NCBI GenBank assembly: GCA_947493695.1
Contig: CANLSF010000001.1
Coordinates: 1,054,001-1,118,000, forward strand
Reading direction: 5' to 3'
From: an uncultured Kiloniellaceae bacterium
GTDB lineage: Bacteria > Pseudomonadota > Alphaproteobacteria > Kiloniellales > Kiloniellaceae
Length of the DNA stretch: 64,000 nt
The notes under the pieces were generated by a model. The model was not told where the DNA came from. It searched no databases and saw only the letters and a list, made by a program, of their open reading frames with translations. The position numbers were made by a program, and so were the translations under genes. Below are positions 29,100 through 44,476 of the stretch, piece after piece; position 1 is the first letter of the stretch; the number at the start of each line of letters is the position of its first letter.

Positions 29100-30455
<1,356 letters not shown>

Positions 30456-30519: not shown

Positions 30520-32634
30520 TCAGTTGGAAACTGGTACTGTAGGTTCGACCAAGAGTGAAGTGTCAAACTCTGCTTCTTTCGGACCGGTTCCCTCCACAAT
30601 GGGAAGGAGGATACGCATTGTTGTTCCTGCCCCCGGGTTACTGATCACTTCAAGGTCTCCTCCAAGCTCCCTCGCATATTCACGGCACTGATACGCGCCA
30701 ATGCCCATGCCGCGGGATTTCGTCGAGCGGAACGGCGTAAAGAGTTCGTTCATGACAAAACTCGTATCCATCCCCGTGCCGTTGTCTGCAACCTCGATCA
30801 GGGCTGTTTCGCCCTTTCGGTTCAGGCTGATCTTGACCCAGCCGTCGGAATCAACTGCATCGATCGCATTCTGCAAAAGATGATTGATAATTGCGCTCAA
30901 ACGTTCCTGGTCGGCGGCGACGGTCACATCGATACCGCTCCAATCTATCGATAAATCTATGGAATCGCTTTGTTTAATTCGCGTTAATTTCGCCAATAAA
31001 GGCCCAATTTGGACAATGTTGCTGGCATTGGCCGTGGGTTGATCATTGCCAAGGCGGTCCATCAGTCGCCGCATTTTCGAAACAGCGTCATTGAGTGTGT
31101 CTGTCATGTCCTCACGAAACTGCTCGTTGTGACCGTGCCGTTCCATGTTCTTGGACAATAACTCCAATTGGCTTACCAGGTTCTTGATGTCGTGTATGAC
31201 GAAGGCGAAGCGCCGATTGAATTTGGCGAATTCCCGCGATTCAGCCAGTGCGACTGCGTTCTTCTGCTCCGCCAGATAGCTGGCGGCCTGTCGCCCGGTT
31301 GTTTTGAGCAGATCGTAGTCTTCCCAGCCCAGCGGCCGGACTGCGCGGGGCCGCGCGAGCAACAGGAAACCGATGAAGGCGGCATGATGGGTCAGAGGAA
31401 CGATAATCCAGGCGTTCTTAAGCTGGCTGATTGAATCGGGTAGGGTTAGATTTCCGTATTTTGACGGATTCTCCTGTACCTCCACGACATCGATCAACCA
31501 CTGGCGCTCTTCCAGAAACCGGGCCATCGACGTTGCTTCATCGGTGCGCAAGCTTGAAACAGCCATGTTCCAGGCTGCATAAACGACGTAGCGGTCATCC
31601 TGGCGCAGCCACAAGGCGCCGCCGGGACTTTCAACGATATCGGCGATGGCCTGGATGACACGTACGCCCAGTTCCTCGGTTTCCTGGGATTCGGACACTG
31701 TACGTGTGAAGCGCAGCCATTCTTCACGGTAGTCATAGCGGTAAGCGTAAAAGTGCTTACCAATCAGAACCTTGATGTGAGCCCTGACGGTTCCGGAGAT
31801 CAGCAGTACGGCCAGAACGATAATCGCGCCGAAGAAGAAGGTGGCCTGAATCACTGTCCCCCAGGCACCGTCGAACTGCTGAAGGAAGAAGCCGACACCG
31901 GCCATGCCGATGATGTAGACGCCGCTTGTGGTCAGCGTAGTGGAGTAAAAGGCGATTTTGCGGGAAACCGTGATATTGGTCCGCCACATTTCGTTGCGGC
32001 GCGAGGAGATTGCGAGCAGTGGAACGACCATCGCCTGCACGCCACCGCGGGCCTCCTGGAATCCTGAGTTAACCTCACCGAACAAAAGGGCGTCCGCATA
32101 GAAAAACAGATCATAGGCAAAGAGTCCGCCTATGCCGATGCAGAGAAACTTTATCTTCCAGCGTTCATCCTCGCTGGTGTTGCGAAACAGGGTTTCGATC
32201 AGCATCAGGCCGGCAATTACCAGCATAAGCCGCAGAAGGCAGCGAACGGTAAAGCCCGCTTCCCACGTCAGTGGCTGATAGAGTTCGTAACCGAGCAGCA
32301 GGATTGAGAAGGCAATGAAGATGAATACGATATAGCGGCCAAGGCCCTGATTCGTATCAGATGACCCGCCTTGCAGCACGCTCCATAGAAACGCCAGCCA
32401 GCATACAGAACGAAGGTTCTCCATGGCTTCTATCAGCGAGGCCAGGTGAACGCCGCTCCAGTTCTGATAGGCGGCAAGCGACAGCCAGAAGAAGGTTACG
32501 AAACAGGCCAGGAACAATAGACTGCCCTGCAGTCGTCGTTCGAAGTTGATGGCCAGCAGCAGTGTAAGGAGGAGGAAGGCGCCAGCGCCGACCGAGTAGC
32601 TGATGGTCCCAATAAGAGCAGTCTCTACGATCAT
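30520..32634 (-). CDS. prsK: XrtA/PEP-CTERM system histidine kinase PrsK
   Basis: N-terminal multi-TM region, GAF-like domain, FAFVIHDIKNLVSQLELLSKN H-box, ATPase GMGIGAYQCREYARELGGDLEVIS. Confidence 0.92.
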   Translation of the reverse strand: MIVETALIGTISYSVGAGAFLLLTLLLAINFERRLQGSLLFLACFVTFFWLSLAAYQNWSGVHLASLIEAMENLRSVCWLAFLWSVLQGGSSDTNQGLGRYIVFIFIAFSILLLGYELYQPLTWEAGFTVRCLLRLMLVIAGLMLIETLFRNTSEDERWKIKFLCIGIGGLFAYDLFFYADALLFGEVNSGFQEARGGVQAMVVPLLAISSRRNEMWRTNITVSRKIAFYSTTLTTSGVYIIGMAGVGFFLQQFDGAWGTVIQATFFFGAIIVLAVLLISGTVRAHIKVLIGKHFYAYRYDYREEWLRFTRTVSESQETEELGVRVIQAIADIVESPGGALWLRQDDRYVVYAAWNMAVSSLRTDEATSMARFLEERQWLIDVVEVQENPSKYGNLTLPDSISQLKNAWIIVPLTHHAAFIGFLLLARPRAVRPLGWEDYDLLKTTGRQAASYLAEQKNAVALAESREFAKFNRRFAFVIHDIKNLVSQLELLSKNMERHGHNEQFREDMTDTLNDAVSKMRRLMDRLGNDQPTANASNIVQIGPLLAKLTRIKQSDSIDLSIDWSGIDVTVAADQERLSAIINHLLQNAIDAVDSDGWVKISLNRKGETALIEVADNGTGMDTSFVMNELFTPFRSTKSRGMGIGAYQCREYARELGGDLEVISNPGAGTTMRILLPIVEGTGPKEAEFDTSLLVEPTVPVSN

Positions 32635-34699: not shown

Positions 34700-34883
34700 A
34701 TCTCATTTGGCGTAACATGTGGCTCGCGTTCTTTTGTTCCCCGAATTCGGTGTTGTTAACTTCGGGCAAAGGACTGCAGAGCATCTAATGATGTATCATC
34801 GGATAAGCTGAACGCCGAGAAGGCGCCGTAACCAACTTCAGGTTGCACAACGACCCGGATAGCGAATGAGCAGGGAAAAGACT

Positions 34884-37694
34884 ATGTCAAACCGATCTGA
34901 ATCCAAAAGAAAACGGACCCGTCTCCTGGCGACTGCCGCCGTAACGCTGGCATTGCTTGCACCACTTTCCGCACAGGGTGCGACCGACAACAGCAAATCC
35001 GTCGCTTATTACGAGGAGGCGCTGGTTTACTTCCAGCAGGGTCAGCTGAACCCGGCCATTATTCAGTTGAAGAACGCCCTGCAACAGGATCGCGACAACG
35101 TCGAGGCGCGTATGCTGCTGGGCAGGATATACGTGCAGATCGGTGATGGCGCCTCAGCTGAGAAAGAATTGAGAGCGGCTGAAAACCGTGGCGTTTCGAG
35201 AGATACCGTTCTCGTTCCCCTCGGTCAGGCTTACCTGCTGCAGCGTAAGTTTACTGAAGCTTTGCGTGAGGTGGAATCGGGAAACCGTGACAACGCCTTT
35301 GAAACCGATGTGTTTTTGATCCGGGGTCGTGGTCACCTTGGTCTCTCGCAGTTTGAAGAGGCGCTGAAAGAAGCGGATGCCGCGGCTGAGTTGAGTCCGA
35401 CGGACGCACGCGCAAAGATTCTTCAGGGCCGGATTTATGGCGCTCAGCAAAGTTATCCGGAAGCTGAAGCAAAGATCGATGCAGCCCTGGCCTTGGTGCC
35501 GGACTCCATTGATGCTCTGTTGGTCAAAGCCGAGTTGCGTCGTTTTGCCAGCGATTTCGACGGTGCAATTGCGAATTTCGATCGGGTTCTTCAGATCAGC
35601 GCCAGTAACATCCCTGCGTTGCTCGGGCGTGCGACGTCCCTGATTGCGCAAAATAAGGACACAGAGGCACAAGCCGATTTGGAGGCCGTGAAGCAGTTCG
35701 CACCCCGGCATCCCACTGCGCATTACTTAAGCGCGTTGGTATTGACCAAGTCGCGGGATTTCCCTGGCGCGCGTGACGCCATTCAAGAGATCGGTCCCTA
35801 TCTCGATAACTTCCCGCCGGCGCTTTATCTGGCCGGTGCGATCAGCTACGCGACGAATGAACTGGAGCGGGCTCAGAGCTATCTGACGGGCTATCTCGCG
35901 CGCTTCCCCGATTATGTTCCTGCGCAGAAGATCCTCTCCGCAACCTATTTGCGAAAGGGCGAATTGGATCGGGCGCTCGGCATTCTTGAGCCGCTTGTGG
36001 AATCCAGTCCGGAGGACGCACAGGCGGTCGCCATGCTGGGTGAGGCGTACTTGCGGGCTGAACGCTACACGGAAGCCACAACGTACCTCGACCGCGCGAC
36101 GGAACTGGCGCCGGAAGATGTCAAAATCGCCCGTGGTCTCGCGGTCAGTCATCTGCGGTCGGGTCAAACCGAAGAAGCGATTAACGTCCTCGAAGCCTCG
36201 CCGGACGTTGGCGGGCCTGATGCATCCGCTTCTAAGATCATTCTCGCGCAGATGCAGATTCGGACCGGCCGGTACGATGAGGCGCTGGAAATCGCCAACA
36301 AGCTTCGTCAGGATCTGCCGGACAGCCCGATCCCCTATAACCTTCTTGGCAGCGCGCTGAGTGTGAAGGGCCAAACAGATGAGGCGCGAAAGGTCTTTGA
36401 AGAGGCGATCACGGCCCACAACACCTACATGCCAGCACGCATGAACGTTGCCCGCCTGGATATGGTGGAAAACAAGCCGGACGATGCGCGAAAACGCTAT
36501 CTAGAGGTTCTCGAGCTTGAGCCGGGTTATCTCAACGCTATGATTGCGTTGTCCGAGCTTGAGGCAGGAGCAGGCAATGATGACGGTGCCGTTGATTGGC
36601 TTCAAAAGGCTATCGACAGTGACCCCGATGCCGTTGCGCCGCGTGTGCGCCTTGCCACATTCCATGCAACGCAAGAGCAATTCGATCTGGCGATTCCTGT
36701 GTTGGACGAGTTGGAGAGACGCCACGGCGACAATCCCCGGGTTCTGCAGGCCGTCGGTCAGCTTTATGTTGGGCATCGGGACTTCAAGGTTGCGAGCGAG
36801 AAATTCGGGCAGCTTGTTGAGAAGGTCCCCAGCTATGTGAACGGGTATCTGCTGCTGGCGCGCTCGCAGGCTTCAACCGGTGATGTTGACACCGCTCGTC
36901 AGACCTATGAAAAGCTGCTCCGTGTTGCGCCGGAGAACGGCGATGCACACCGGGCAATCGTAGAGATCGACATCGGTAAGGGCGATCTGGATGCGGCCAT
37001 GAAAACGGCGACGTCGCTTCGCGACAAGTTGCCGGATATTGCGGATGGCCATCAGCTGATGGCGGATGTTTTCATGCAAAGCAGAAAATTTCCTGAGGCC
37101 GTAAAGTCTTACGAGGCGGCTTGGGAGAAACAGCCCAGCGGTCCGCTTTCAATCGCTCTGTTCCGGGCGCGCTCGCAAATAATGGAGAAAGCAGAGGCTG
37201 TACCGCCACTGAAGGATTGGGTTGATGCCAATGCCAACGACGATGCGGCGCGTCTTGTGCTGGCAGGGGTTCAATTGGAAACGGATGCTCATGACCAGGC
37301 CCTCGAAAACTATGAGGTCCTGAACGAGAAACGCCCCGGAAACCCAATCATCCTGAACAATCTCGCGTGGCTTTATCAGGAGCGCAATGATCCGAAAGGC
37401 CTGGAATACGGCGAGGAAGCATTGAAGGTTGCTCCAGGTCAGCCGGCGATTATGGATACGGTGGGCTGGATTCTCGTGCAGCGCGGCGAGGCCTCTCGAG
37501 GCGTTGAAATGTTGGCAGATGCCAGTGCGAAACTGCCACAGGATCCCGAGGTTCAGTTCCATTATGCCTTCGCCCTGAAAGAAACCGGTAAGACCGAAGA
37601 AGCCAAAACCCTGGTCGGCGCCTTGCTTGACGCGCATAGCGGCTTCTCCTCGGAAGCTGAAGCACGGCGACTCCTAGATGAGCTAGGCGGTTAG
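34884..37694 (+). CDS. prsT: XrtA/PEP-CTERM system TPR-repeat protein PrsT
   Basis: Signal peptide followed by continuous TPR repeats (YYEEALVYFQQGQLNPAIIQLKNALQQDRDNVEARMLLGRIYV...). Confidence 0.9.
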   Translation: MSNRSESKRKRTRLLATAAVTLALLAPLSAQGATDNSKSVAYYEEALVYFQQGQLNPAIIQLKNALQQDRDNVEARMLLGRIYVQIGDGASAEKELRAAENRGVSRDTVLVPLGQAYLLQRKFTEALREVESGNRDNAFETDVFLIRGRGHLGLSQFEEALKEADAAAELSPTDARAKILQGRIYGAQQSYPEAEAKIDAALALVPDSIDALLVKAELRRFASDFDGAIANFDRVLQISASNIPALLGRATSLIAQNKDTEAQADLEAVKQFAPRHPTAHYLSALVLTKSRDFPGARDAIQEIGPYLDNFPPALYLAGAISYATNELERAQSYLTGYLARFPDYVPAQKILSATYLRKGELDRALGILEPLVESSPEDAQAVAMLGEAYLRAERYTEATTYLDRATELAPEDVKIARGLAVSHLRSGQTEEAINVLEASPDVGGPDASASKIILAQMQIRTGRYDEALEIANKLRQDLPDSPIPYNLLGSALSVKGQTDEARKVFEEAITAHNTYMPARMNVARLDMVENKPDDARKRYLEVLELEPGYLNAMIALSELEAGAGNDDGAVDWLQKAIDSDPDAVAPRVRLATFHATQEQFDLAIPVLDELERRHGDNPRVLQAVGQLYVGHRDFKVASEKFGQLVEKVPSYVNGYLLLARSQASTGDVDTARQTYEKLLRVAPENGDAHRAIVEIDIGKGDLDAAMKTATSLRDKLPDIADGHQLMADVFMQSRKFPEAVKSYEAAWEKQPSGPLSIALFRARSQIMEKAEAVPPLKDWVDANANDDAARLVLAGVQLETDAHDQALENYEVLNEKRPGNPIILNNLAWLYQERNDPKGLEYGEEALKVAPGQPAIMDTVGWILVQRGEASRGVEMLADASAKLPQDPEVQFHYAFALKETGKTEEAKTLVGALLDAHSGFSSEAEARRLLDELGG

Positions 37695-40311: not shown

Positions 40312-41154
40312 TTAGGCAGCCTTGCGGCGGCGTGCGATGCCGAGGCCGACGAGACCCAGGCCCAGCAGGGCAAGTGTGCCTGGCTCAGCGACCGGGCGCG
40401 CCGTAATCGTGAAGGAGGTCTGCAGCTCGTTGTCCAGGCCTTCTTCCGTGATGAAGCCAATGCAACCGGCTGCTTCGCCAGCAGCGGCACAGGCTTCGTC
40501 AGACAGTGGGCCGAGGCCAGCAGCGGTCAGAGCGACGACGTATTCGAAACCGTCGAGGATGAAGTCGAAGGAGAGTACGCCCGGATCCTGAAGAACGAAG
40601 ATATCGGCGCAAGGCGTTCCGCCCGTGCCAGGTGTGCACTGTCCGCCACCGATACCGCCGTTGAGAGTCTCACTGAACACAATATTGAAGATCGTTGGTA
40701 CAGGACCAATTGCAGGGCCTATCGGATTAATCGGTGTCAGAAGCAGTGTCGTGCTCAAGGTCGCATTCTGCAGTGTCGCGCTCTGGCTGGAGACAGCATT
40801 GTTTGCGTGTGTCAGCATCGCCCCGGCAACACCTGCGCCATTTGTGAAGAGGCTCGGGCCGGGCACGACGGTCGGCGTCACGAATAACTGGCTTGGACCA
40901 TTGCTTCCCTCACCCCAGGAAAGAACTGTCGGCAGATTGCCGAAGCTCGCATTGGGGCTGGAACCGACGACGCCGTTGTTGGTGGCGATGTTGGGAGCTG
41001 CGTTCTGGTCAGGTGCCGCAGGGGCAAATGCCGAGAAGCCTGCTTGAACTTCATAACCCCATTCGGTGATGAGCGCGGCGGATGCCTGCGTGGCACCGGC
41101 CATGAGTGTCAGGGCTACAGCCGTGCCGCTCAGAATTCTCGAAAACTTTGACAT
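40312..41154 (-). CDS. THxN-type PEP-CTERM protein 1
   Basis: Signal peptide MSKFSRILSGTAVALTLMAGATQASA; LTHANN (THxN); C-term VAEPGTLALLGLGLVGLGIARRRKAA. Confidence 0.93.
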   Translation of the reverse strand: MSKFSRILSGTAVALTLMAGATQASAALITEWGYEVQAGFSAFAPAAPDQNAAPNIATNNGVVGSSPNASFGNLPTVLSWGEGSNGPSQLFVTPTVVPGPSLFTNGAGVAGAMLTHANNAVSSQSATLQNATLSTTLLLTPINPIGPAIGPVPTIFNIVFSETLNGGIGGGQCTPGTGGTPCADIFVLQDPGVLSFDFILDGFEYVVALTAAGLGPLSDEACAAAGEAAGCIGFITEEGLDNELQTSFTITARPVAEPGTLALLGLGLVGLGIARRRKAA

Positions 41155-41197: not shown

Positions 41198-41214
41198 AGC
41201 AATTTGTGTGCCAA
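41198..41214 (-). promoter_or_regulatory. Sigma-54 -24/-12 promoter of PEP-CTERM gene 1
   Basis: Minus strand TTGGCACACAAATTGCT; GG and GC separated by exactly 10 nt. Confidence 0.85.
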
Positions 41215-41275
41215 TAAAAAAAATTATTATACATCAAATGGTTATGCTTGGAGTAACGGTGCGGACTCAAAAATC

Positions 41276-41292
41276 TGTAAAGTAGATCGACA
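41276..41292 (-). promoter_or_regulatory. Candidate PrsR upstream activating site of PEP-CTERM gene 1
   Basis: + strand TGTAAAGTAGATCGACA, starting 63 bp beyond the -24 element; shared with genes 2 and 3. Confidence 0.65.
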
Positions 41293-41487
41293 GGAATAGA
41301 TACTTAAGAGAGTGATATTGCTGCATGCACAACCGCGCCAATAAGATGGGATAGCAAGAAGGTGATATAAATCAGACCGTTAAAATTTTTCCGGTTCCCT
41401 GTAAACTCCTCCGACAGATATTCAATAGGTAGGTGAAGGAAGGGCGGCGTTCCCGTACAGATTGATTCTGGTTTCGATGCTGTATTA

Positions 41488-41643
41488 AGGCATAAAAAAA
41501 CCTCCCGCCGGAATGGCGGGAGGTCTTCTTTAGGTAACTCTAAGTCGGGGTGGACTTAGGCAGCTGCCTTACGGCGGCGTGCGATACCGAGGCCAAGCAG
41601 GCCGAGGCCGAGAAGAGCCAGCGTACCGGGCTCAGCGACCGGA
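41488..41643. repeat. Duplicated terminator + 3' coding end, copy A
   Basis: Near-identical to 42750-42905 (offset 1262). Confidence 0.85.
41493..41530 (-). terminator. Terminator of PEP-CTERM gene 2
   Basis: CCTCCCGCC-GGAAT-GGCGGGAGG with A7 on + strand (T-run in minus transcript). Confidence 0.88.
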
Positions 41644-42404
41644 CGTGCCGAGATACGGAATGCCGTATCGAGCGTGCTGGTCTGGTTCTCCGGAGTGATG
41701 AAACCTACGCAACCGGCGACTTCGTCGGCAGCTGCACAAGCTTCGTCGGACAGCACGCCGAGGCCATCAACAAGCAGCTCAACCGTGTAAATGAACTCGT
41801 CGATCAGCAGGTCGAAGGACAGTGCGCCTGGGTTATCAAGCACGAAGATGTCAGCGCAAGGTGTTCCACCTGTACCAGGTGTACATACGCCATCAACACC
41901 GCCATTAGGGGTCTCTTGAAACAGGATGGAGAAGATAATCGGAATTGGGCCGATTGTTGAGCCTGCAGGATTGACCGGGGTCAGCGACAGGGTCGTTGCG
42001 AGTGTCGCGGACTCAAGCGAAAGACTTCCGCCGGTGATCACGTTGTTGGCATGAGTGATCGAAGCACCAGCCACAGGACCTGCGTTGGTGAAGAGGTTCG
42101 GCGGAGGAGTAACACTCGGAGTGACCGACAAGCTGCTGGACGGGCCGCCGTTTGCGCCAAGACCCCAGGAAATTGTGGTCGGGAGACCGCCGATTCCTGC
42201 ATTAGGGTTGGAACCGACGACGCCGTTGTTGTCGCTGTCGTTGGGAGCTGCGTTCTGATCGGGCGCAACTGGGCCAAATGCCGAGAAGCCTGCCTGTACT
42301 TCGTAGCCCCATTGGGTGATGAGTGCGGCAGAGGCCTGCGTGGCGCCTGCCATGAGCGTCAGCGCAACTGCTGTACCGCCCAGAAACTTTGTAAACTTAG
42401 ACAT
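41556..42404 (-). CDS. THxN-type PEP-CTERM protein 2
   Basis: Start at MSKFTKFLGGTAVALTLMAGATQASAALITQWGYEV; ITHANN; VAEPGTLALLGLGLLGLGIARRRKAAA. Confidence 0.93.
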   Translation of the reverse strand: MSKFTKFLGGTAVALTLMAGATQASAALITQWGYEVQAGFSAFGPVAPDQNAAPNDSDNNGVVGSNPNAGIGGLPTTISWGLGANGGPSSSLSVTPSVTPPPNLFTNAGPVAGASITHANNVITGGSLSLESATLATTLSLTPVNPAGSTIGPIPIIFSILFQETPNGGVDGVCTPGTGGTPCADIFVLDNPGALSFDLLIDEFIYTVELLVDGLGVLSDEACAAADEVAGCVGFITPENQTSTLDTAFRISARPVAEPGTLALLGLGLLGLGIARRRKAAA

Positions 42405-42450
42405 ATTGTTAATCTGTCCTAAAATCATGTGTGGATACCTGGCCCATCGT

Positions 42451-42467
42451 AGCAATCCGCGTGCCAA
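42451..42467 (-). promoter_or_regulatory. Sigma-54 -24/-12 promoter of PEP-CTERM gene 2
   Basis: Minus strand TTGGCACGCGGATTGCT. Confidence 0.87.
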
Positions 42468-42528
42468 TATAAAAAAATGTTTGTTTTCAGTATCTTATAT
42501 GCGATTTTGGAAAGTAAGGCGCTTTTGT

Positions 42529-42545
42529 TGTAAAGCGCATCGACA
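42529..42545 (-). promoter_or_regulatory. Candidate PrsR upstream activating site of PEP-CTERM gene 2
   Basis: + strand TGTAAAGCGCATCGACA, 63 bp beyond the -24 element. Confidence 0.65.
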
Positions 42546-42749
42546 AATCCTCGCCTTAATAAAGTCACAACTTGGATGGATTTGTTCAGGAGTGATGACG
42601 TTTTTTACAAAAAAAACATATAAAACAACAGCATAGCCAGTTGAATGCAGTTGTAAAATTTATCAACAATCAAGTTGGTTAACTTTTTCGGTTAAGAGAG
42701 ACGCGCCCGTTCAACACCGCTTTTTTTCAATGGTTTCATCCTAATCTTC

Positions 42750-42905
42750 AGGCATAAAAAAACCTCCCGCCGGAACGACGGGAGGTCTTCTTTGGGTAAC
42801 TCTAAGTCGGGTTAGACTTAGGCAGCTGCCTTACGGCGGCGTGCGATACCGAGGCCAAGCAGGCCGAGGCCGAGAAGGGCCAAGGTGCCAGGCTCAGCGA
42901 CCGGC
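42750..42905. repeat. Duplicated terminator + 3' coding end, copy B
   Basis: AGGCATAAAAAAACCTCCCGCCGGAA...GGGAGGTCTTCTTT.GGTAACTCTAAGTCGGG...CTTAGGCAGCTGCCTTACGGCGGCGTGCGATACCGAGGCCAAGCAGGCCGAGGCCGAGAAG shared with copy A. Confidence 0.85.
42756..42792 (-). terminator. Terminator of PEP-CTERM gene 3
   Basis: CCTCCCG...CGGGAGG with A-run on + strand. Confidence 0.85.
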
Positions 42906-43657
42906 GTAGCGGTAATCTGGAAGGTCGTCTGTACGCTGTTTGACAGATTTTCCTGTGTGAGGAAGCCCTCACAACCACTGTCAACACCTGCTGCTGCACA
43001 GGCGTCGTCGCCCAGAGTGGCCAGACCTTCTACGAAAAGCGAAATGGTGTAGATGAAGTCCTCGATCACCAGATCGAAAGAGAGGTCTTCCGGGTTGGTC
43101 AGGACAAAGACGTCATCGCAAACTGACGTCGAGCCTCCGACGCAGGTTCCGCCGTTGTTAGGGCTTTCAAAAAAGTTGACACCAAACATCAGCGGGATCG
43201 GACCGACAACAGGAACGCCGCCTGGGAGTGCCGTCAGAGTCAACGAGGTCTGCAGCGTGGCACTGGAAAGATCATTGCTCGTACCAGTGATGACATTGTT
43301 GTTATGGGTCAAAATAGCACCGTTAACCGGACCACCATTCGTCACCAAAGTAGGATTAGGTGGAGAGGTGACGAGGCCTTCGACGACAAGACTGCTGGAC
43401 GGTCCCCCGTTTACACCCTGTCCCCACGACAAGACCGTTGGCCCTGATCCGAAGTCAGCGCCGCTTGCGACAACACCGTTGTTGGTAGAGTCATTAGGGG
43501 CTGCGCCCTGATTGGGTGCAGCTGGCGCGAATGCACCCCAACCAGCCGTGACGACATAATCCCACTGCTGAATGAGCGCTGCAGACGCTTGACCTGCGCT
43601 TGCAATGAGCGTCAGCGCAACCGCGGTGCCGCCCAAAAGTTTTCTAAAATTTGACAT
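42818..43657 (-). CDS. THxN-type PEP-CTERM protein 3
   Basis: Start at MSNFRKLLGGTAVALTLIASAGQASAALIQQWDYVV; LTHNNN; VAEPGTLALLGLGLLGLGIARRRKAAA. Confidence 0.93.
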   Translation of the reverse strand: MSNFRKLLGGTAVALTLIASAGQASAALIQQWDYVVTAGWGAFAPAAPNQGAAPNDSTNNGVVASGADFGSGPTVLSWGQGVNGGPSSSLVVEGLVTSPPNPTLVTNGGPVNGAILTHNNNVITGTSNDLSSATLQTSLTLTALPGGVPVVGPIPLMFGVNFFESPNNGGTCVGGSTSVCDDVFVLTNPEDLSFDLVIEDFIYTISLFVEGLATLGDDACAAAGVDSGCEGFLTQENLSNSVQTTFQITATPVAEPGTLALLGLGLLGLGIARRRKAAA

Positions 43658-43727
43658 TGCTTTTATTACCCTCGCTAAAAATCTATCGATGACGTAACAA
43701 GTGCTAATAGGTTGTCGTTGGTATACA

Positions 43728-43744
43728 AGCAAATTGCGTGCCAA
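43728..43744 (-). promoter_or_regulatory. Sigma-54 -24/-12 promoter of PEP-CTERM gene 3
   Basis: Minus strand TTGGCACGCAATTTGCT. Confidence 0.87.
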
Positions 43745-43804
43745 AGTATTTTTTATATATTTTACAATGTTTTAGGATCAAAATAATTGCCGTCAAACAC
43801 TGTT

Positions 43805-43821
43805 TGTAAGGAATGCCGACA
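43805..43821 (-). promoter_or_regulatory. Candidate PrsR upstream activating site of PEP-CTERM gene 3
   Basis: + strand TGTAAGGAATGCCGACA, 62 bp beyond the -24 element. Confidence 0.55.
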
Positions 43822-44476
43822 TATACTTGACGTCCTAAAATCGCAGATTCAGCCGAATTTTTTGACCTCTCAATGGCGAAACTAAAATAAGGTTAATATT
43901 AACAATGTTTTAACAATTACATTGCTGGTGTAAAGATTCTCAACACTTCTTTGCCACAGCTTGTTGATGGAGAGGCAGCTATCCATGGAATCTTTACTTC
44001 AAACGATTTTAAAAAAAACCGTATGCATATGAGTTTTATGCTAAAAGTCAGTGGGGGCCAGTATGGTTAAATTTGTAAACTTTCCCGACTCACGGGCATC
44101 TGTCGGCTGGAAGCCATAGGTTTTGAGCCATTCCTTCTAAATCGGGTGCCTTCACCCGGTCGTTCTTTACTGGCTGTGGCGAATCGTCGACACTTCAAAG
44201 CATGATTTTAAAGCGTAAGACATCATTCACTGGTGCGCGATAATTCGGTAAGGATTTAAAAGTTTCATCCGGGTAGTGTCGTGCACGCACGACCGAAGTC
44301 TCGGTACATATCCCTTCTGCTGCGTTTTCGCTCCGGCCATTTGTCTGTCAGGCGCTATGCGATTGCCGTGTCGGGTTCCGCGCCGGGAGCAATCAGGAGC
44401 GTCGCAGTTTGCGGTTCCATGGCCTAATGTCGTGGCGGAAGCAGGAAGATTGAAGCAATTAAGGAAGATGCGCTGA

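Follow-up and report, generated by a model that had tools for sequence, protein, structure and literature searches.

The three genes for THxN family PEP-CTERM proteins (a, b and c) in a 64,000-nucleotide stretch of an uncultured Kiloniellaceae genome (contig CANLSF010000001.1, positions 1,054,001 to 1,118,000; hereafter the window) raise the question of how their transcription is activated and by which regulator. An earlier note on this DNA had proposed that each gene is read from a sigma-54 promoter with a 17-bp motif, a candidate site for the response regulator PrsR, at a fixed distance upstream. We found that box-to-promoter gaps in related genomes shift by single helical turns, that the spacer between box and promoter holds an element resembling a site for integration host factor (IHF), and that paired boxes are a trait of the genus and rare elsewhere. 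The novelty lies in the second box, the IHF-like element and the helical steps; the motif by itself is already known.

The accessible text of Haft et al. 2006 (PMC1569441) describes, for 99 of 167 PEP-CTERM genes from Proteobacteria, an upstream 17-nt motif 1 that ends in TTTACA and is "sometimes repeated", followed downstream by a 17-nt sigma-54 motif 2. The spacer averages 62.8 nt (standard deviation 10.6, range 32-92), and PrsR was proposed there as the binder of motif 1 from a phylogenetic profile. The earlier note had offered motif and spacing as its own reading; both are real, but since motif, spacing, sigma-54 element and the assignment to PrsR had all been published in 2006, they are rediscovered here and do not represent a new motif. 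As in that study, the window contains motif 1, a sigma-54 -24(GG)/-12(GC) motif 2, gaps of 61, 61 and 60 bp as well as PrsK, PrsR and PrsT, and the motifs lie upstream of single-gene PEP-CTERM operons with long intergenic regions. In contrast to it, the repeat of the box is universal in the genus and recurs at certain spacings, an IHF-like element occupies the spacer, and the spread of gaps resolves into helical turns. The IHF-like element and the helical-turn classes are undescribed in the accessible text of PMC1569441, and a prior report of the second box, the IHF-like element or the helical gap steps was not found in the open-licence PubMed Central (PMC) literature.

Promoter elements of the THxN genes

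The THxN genes and all of their promoter elements lie on the minus strand of the window (Table 1). Zero-mismatch matches to TTGGCACN5TTGCW in the 64 kb are exactly the three THxN promoter elements and no others. The earlier note had located these elements correctly but had given the spacer between TTGGCAC and TTGC as N6 where it is N5, and a pattern with the N6 spacer (TGGCN6TTGC) recovered 0 real sites in the genome scan. On the gene strand the proximal 17-bp box reads TGTCGRNNNNYYTTACA, and all three copies fit TGTCGN7TTACA exactly; the 3' ends are CTTTACA in the boxes at 41276 and 42529 and CCTTACA, with one mismatch to TTTACA, in the box at 43805. Exact matches to TGTCGN7TTACA occur four times in the window, each upstream of a THxN gene and within one 2.6-kb stretch, compared to about 0.12 expected by composition-free counting. 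The proximal boxes stand where the earlier note had placed them, whereas its distances to TTGGCAC of 63, 63 and 62 bp had counted end positions. It had also described the intervening DNA as not obviously conserved; each of the three spacers carries an IHF-like element, which had been overlooked together with one distal box per gene. Gene c has a third box, whose 269-bp offset is identical in two congeners (L346, L354). From each THxN start codon to the next upstream gene, approximately 400-820 bp are intergenic.

Box position, spacer element and second box across genomes

The class, phylum and family scans yielded 111 composite matches, which were split into 77 with a good box and 28 with a poor box according to its 5' half, a part left unused by the search pattern. 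After dereplication, the good-box set comprised 67 promoters from many genomes. TTTACA and TTGGCAY were fixed in the search, so that these columns are uninformative on conservation, and sites from the same genome are partly non-independent. Gaps in the good-box set fell at 50-52, 60-63 and 72-75 bp, with most of the 67 promoters at 60-63, and 13 of the 15 gaps outside 59-64 lay 9-12 bp from 62 (p=2e-5); gaps in the poor-box set were flat (Rayleigh p=0.56). The genus set, consisting of promoters gathered around exact box matches in the own genome and those of three congeners (G688-G690), taken alone displayed classes at 49-52, 60-62 and 71-74 bp. The spacer standard deviation of 10.6 nt reported in 2006 may be partly due to such helical-turn classes.

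The spacer element is a 13-bp sequence, YAANNNNYTGAWW, that ends 16-19 bp upstream of TTGGCA. It was first noticed in the own-genome and class sets, and the later sets therefore served as hold-out. At a threshold of at least 8 of 9 positions, with a relaxed WW ending for the hold-out, the element was present in 36 of 49 hold-out promoters (300 shuffles: mean 0.77, maximum 4), while its reverse orientation at the same place occurred in 0 of 49. On the opposite strand, the element corresponds to WATCARNNNNTTR, the IHF consensus of E. coli quoted in PMC7962754, usually with TTGAA for TTGAT; a match to this consensus at 8 or more of 9 positions was found at the fixed place before -24 in 41 of the 67 promoters. 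Of 22 sigma-54-like sites without a box in the own genome, 1 had the element. At gaps of 51, 72 and 73 bp, the distance from element to promoter remained constant while the box moved in three of four readable promoters (L250, L252, L215; the exception is L286). Judged by its sequence, the element is a predicted IHF site, at which IHF would bind and bend the DNA. A search of open-licence PMC for PEP-CTERM together with integration host factor returned, by title and abstract, only papers on other subjects.

One genome (G678; promoters L251, L265, L268, L274-L277 and L281) has a set of spacers, GTTAACC..GTCATCGGCC at gap 63, that are nearly identical to each other and lack the usual IHF-like element. 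These promoters give the impression of a cassette that is mobile or was amplified recently.

A second upstream box was present in all promoters of the genus set (43/43). In the wider set, it occurred within 300 bp in 9 of the 67 promoters, 4 of them from the own genome (shuffles 0.6), and the rest of the family gave no clear box excess over control. The spacing of the box pair in the genus recurs at 41-42, 99-104 and 120-124 bp. Coincident spacings between ortholog groups numbered 20 pairs compared to 8.4 expected (p=0.003), and no helical phasing of the box-to-box spacing was detected over ortholog groups (R=0.22 at 10.5 bp, p=0.40). Between sufficiently distant boxes, a second IHF-like element was found at 8/9 in 21 of 39 cases (shuffle mean 5.0, maximum 12), which is weaker evidence because orthologues were counted separately.

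The likely activator and alternative readings

PrsR, PrsK and PrsT are all encoded in the window and score above their family cut-offs. PrsR, with a GAFTGA loop at this same locus as the earlier note had said, is composed of a receiver, a sigma-54 AAA+ domain with GAFTGA and a Fis helix-turn-helix (HTH), and it is the sole protein of the genome above the TIGR02915 cut-off. Its domain content and family score make PrsR the likely box-binding activator. The whole genome (6.46 Mb) was scanned by sequence patterns, with the reversed pattern as control. We obtained 15 box matches (4 with the reversed pattern) and 9 composites of box, 61-bp gap and sigma-54 element at up to 3 mismatches (control 0). 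Enrichment upstream of PEP-CTERM genes, the absence of which the earlier note had named as speaking against its proposal, was thus observed: six of the nine composites lie upstream of such genes, and the control had 0 matches. With this genome-wide enrichment, a sigma-54 promoter with a candidate PrsR site is the best-supported reading, the binding itself being predicted. TIGR02595 identified 43 PEP-CTERM genes in the genome, and 12 of these have box and sigma-54 element upstream, each with at least 2 boxes. In named genomes, almost no PEP-CTERM genes or composites were found within 10 kb of PrsR relatives.

We consider it very probable that the THxN promoters are PrsR-activated sigma-54 promoters of the motif 1/motif 2 type, in which PrsR would bind the box. 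Four results weigh against this interpretation or its details. The box is absent from 31 of the 43 PEP-CTERM genes. About 10 other open reading frames (ORFs) score 257-412 bits against that part of the PrsR model which covers the sigma-54 AAA+ domain, and another activator could therefore bind the box. Fifteen named genomes with PrsR relatives gave no strict composite match, using a pattern that catches only 5 of about 16 composites in the own genome. The preference for TTGAA, finally, often leaves the spacer element one position off the E. coli IHF consensus.

Binding of the box by another of the genome's NtrC-type activators in place of PrsR would be in line with the further AAA+ matches, with four boxed targets that are non-PEP-CTERM genes and with the missing strict composites in the 15 PrsR-bearing genomes. 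Against it, the phylogenetic profile in the accessible text of Haft et al. 2006 (PMC1569441) singled out PrsR among such regulators, and five predicted PEP-CTERM targets were enriched in vitro when DVUA0057, the PrsR homologue from D. vulgaris, was examined by DNA-affinity-purified chip (DAP-chip) analysis (PMC3333781). PrsR moreover adjoins the THxN genes and alone exceeds the family cut-off, and we regard the substitution of another activator as quite improbable. Far more remote still is the idea that the shared motifs are unconstrained leftovers of a tandem duplication of THxN gene and promoter. The genes are paralogues with proteins 58-71% identical, and their box-pair spacing is nearly constant at 123-124 bp; however, identity between the three window promoters is 67-75% inside the elements and 34-37% outside, and the same elements occur at unrelated PEP-CTERM and non-PEP-CTERM genes of this genome and recur in further families of the class. 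Across ten THxN promoters from four species, element columns had a mean identity of 74% and the remainder 40%. This contrast despite similar proteins indicates more than a mere leftover of gene duplication, and on this basis we rejected the view that the motif stems from tandem duplication. The elements are thus maintained through selection and are not a product of recent duplication.

For the spacer element, a contact for another protein or an extended sigma-54 or PrsR surface is a possibility of modest weight; its single fixed orientation, its fixed distance to -24 and the TTGAA in place of the E. coli TTGAT would suit such a role. An IHF site is favored by the fit to the consensus on the other strand and by the restriction of the element to boxed promoters instead of sigma-54-like sites generally. 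At nifH and Pu, the DNA that separates enhancer and promoter is bent by IHF, and IHF sites in this position are standard at sigma-54 promoters. As to the distal box, it seems unlikely that it is a separate site, serving a repressor, anti-activation or as the enhancer of another promoter, and not a site for co-operating PrsR: distal and proximal boxes have the same sequence and the same orientation in every case, and the pair spacing falls into classes of about 42, 101 and 123 bp with the excess of coincident pairs described above. The unphased pair spacing over ortholog groups does favor a separate site, and a rigid side-by-side complex is therefore not demanded.

Sigma-54 requires an AAA+ activator, the GAFTGA loop of which contacts sigma-54. 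In the mechanism that we propose for PrsR-type promoters, sigma-54 RNA polymerase would be held as a closed complex at TTGGCAC-N5-TTGC. PrsK would phosphorylate PrsR, dimers of which would occupy the proximal 17-bp box and the second box 41-130 bp further upstream. Bound PrsR would then form the active AAA+ ring with its GAFTGA loop touching sigma-54, while bending of the DNA at the IHF-like element, which lies between proximal box and -24, would carry the activator to the polymerase. If the bend positions PrsR, the place of the element should be fixed and the box should remain on a constant helical face (gap of about 61 bp plus or minus one turn). The two boxes per promoter in the genus may favor cooperative loading of PrsR.

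On balance, we lean towards the general view that Alphaproteobacterial PrsR promoters are a fixed three-part loop of box, IHF bend and -24/-12 element in which the box moves by whole helical turns, and that the regulon of the genus has gained a second box, often a second IHF-like site, and also drives non-cargo genes (an HPr-rel-A kinase/PqqD cluster and a 70-aa membrane protein). No report of a fixed-loop, two-box architecture for PEP-CTERM genes was found in searchable open-licence PMC papers. Like NtrC/NifA-type systems (glnAp2, nifH, Pu), these promoters have paired 17-bp dyad-like sites, a bend site between enhancer and -24/-12 element, and an AAA+ activator with GAFTGA and Fis HTH. They differ from them in the box itself, TGTCGG-N5-TTTACA, in the short distance of about 61 bp that separates the proximal site from -24, and in a regulator of the PrsR family (TIGR02915). 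A mapped, RpoN-dependent promoter is described for pepA of Aquincola tertiaricarbonis RN12 in the accessible text of PMC9850573. It likewise belongs to a PEP-CTERM gene and has a TGGCAC/CTGCTT sigma-54 promoter with a predicted upstream enhancer; its gene family differs from THxN, and paired boxes or an IHF-like element are unmentioned in that text. Regulation of exosortase cargo by PrsR has been predicted since 2006, with little direct testing. Two boxes, the IHF-like site and the helical steps lead to a sharper genome-wide regulon model, and the refined architecture predicts in what way promoters would fail on alteration of each part.

Table 1. Coordinates of promoter elements, THxN genes and prs genes in the window
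Feature	Coordinates	Strand	Sequence	Remarks
THxN family PEP-CTERM protein a	40312..41154	-		280 aa; NF038125, 243 bits
sigma-54 -24/-12 element, gene a	41198..41214	-	TTGGCACACAAATTGCT	0 mismatches
IHF-like element, gene a	41232..41244	-	TAACCATTTGATG	8/9; 17 bp upstream of TTGGCAC
Proximal PrsR-type box (motif 1), gene a	41276..41292	-	TGTCGATCTACTTTACA	gap 61
Second IHF-like element between boxes, gene a	41370..41382	-	TAACGGTCTGATT	9/9 to YAANNNNYTGATW
Distal box, gene a	41400..41416	-	TGTCGGAGGAGTTTACA	exact match; 124 bp upstream of proximal
THxN family PEP-CTERM protein b	41556..42404	-		282 aa; NF038125, 252 bits
sigma-54 element, gene b	42451..42467	-	TTGGCACGCGGATTGCT	0 mismatches
IHF-like element, gene b	42485..42497	-	TAAGATACTGAAA	
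Proximal box, gene b	42529..42545	-	TGTCGATGCGCTTTACA	gap 61
Distal box, gene b	42652..42668	-	TGTTGATAAATTTTACA	one mismatch; 123 bp upstream of proximal
THxN family PEP-CTERM protein c	42818..43657	-		279 aa; NF038125, 239 bits
sigma-54 element, gene c	43728..43744	-	TTGGCACGCAATTTGCT	0 mismatches
IHF-like element, gene c	43762..43774	-	TAAAACATTGTAA	
Proximal box, gene c	43805..43821	-	TGTCGGCATTCCTTACA	gap 60
Second IHF-like element between boxes, gene c	43900..43912	-	TAAAACATTGTTA	
Distal box, gene c	43929..43945	-	TGTTGAGAATCTTTACA	one mismatch; 124 bp upstream of proximal
Third box, gene c	44074..44090	-	AGTCGGGAAAGTTTACA	269 bp upstream of proximal
PrsR, response regulator	29100..30455	-		GAFTGA loop, Fis-type HTH; TIGR02915, 658 bits, cut-off 503
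PrsK, sensor histidine kinase	30520..32634	-		TIGR02916, 737 bits
PrsT, TPR protein, XrtA/PEP-CTERM system	34866..37694	+		TIGR02917, 731 bits

Other genes with PrsR-type promoters

Four promoters with the full architecture lie upstream of non-PEP-CTERM genes. The promoter at C3:372414 (L012) precedes a gene for a 70-aa single-pass membrane protein (MFDWILLVALVLVTAFMWWRV...), which is kept together with its full PrsR-type promoter in three congeners (L344, L348, L355) and thus in four species, and that at C3:376327 precedes a 56-aa ORF. At C9:177869 (L106), a promoter with two boxes, IHF-like element and sigma-54 element lies upstream of a gene for a 159-aa protein, which is followed by genes for an HPr-rel-A PqqD chaperone (TIGR04353) and for a kinase related to HprK (TIGR04352, a partial ORF at the end of the locus). 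This suggests a link between PrsR and an HPr-rel-A peptide-modification-like system. The fourth promoter, at C10:14883 (L015), precedes a gene for a 286-aa protein with genus orthologues of approximately 286-312 aa (L345, L352, L356). The protein has an N-terminal signal-like segment, a C-terminal transmembrane helix and an Arg-rich tail without a PEP motif, a predicted layout that resembles a sorting signal minus PEP. A search of the non-PEP-CTERM target genes against NCBIfam gave no match besides the HPr-rel-A genes. The refined architecture points to these genes as members of the regulon, which may contribute to matrix formation or to the sorting of surface proteins.

The boxes at C1:362246, C7:133581, C2:952445 and C1:1042989 are located inside or beside coding sequence and were taken as chance matches; those at C1:362246 and C7:133581 sit in two paralogous genes. 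At G000:C5:174593-178407 (L035, L036, L037), three sigma-54-like elements on the same strand are clustered in 4 kb but lack a good PrsR-type composite, and these are possibly targets of another activator.

Directly 3' of THxN genes b and c, strong hairpins at 41500-41524 and at approximately 42760-42785 are near-identical (ACCTCCCGCCGG...CGGGAGGT) and have A/T runs on both sides. They are likely terminators, possibly bidirectional, that hold each gene as a single-gene operon.

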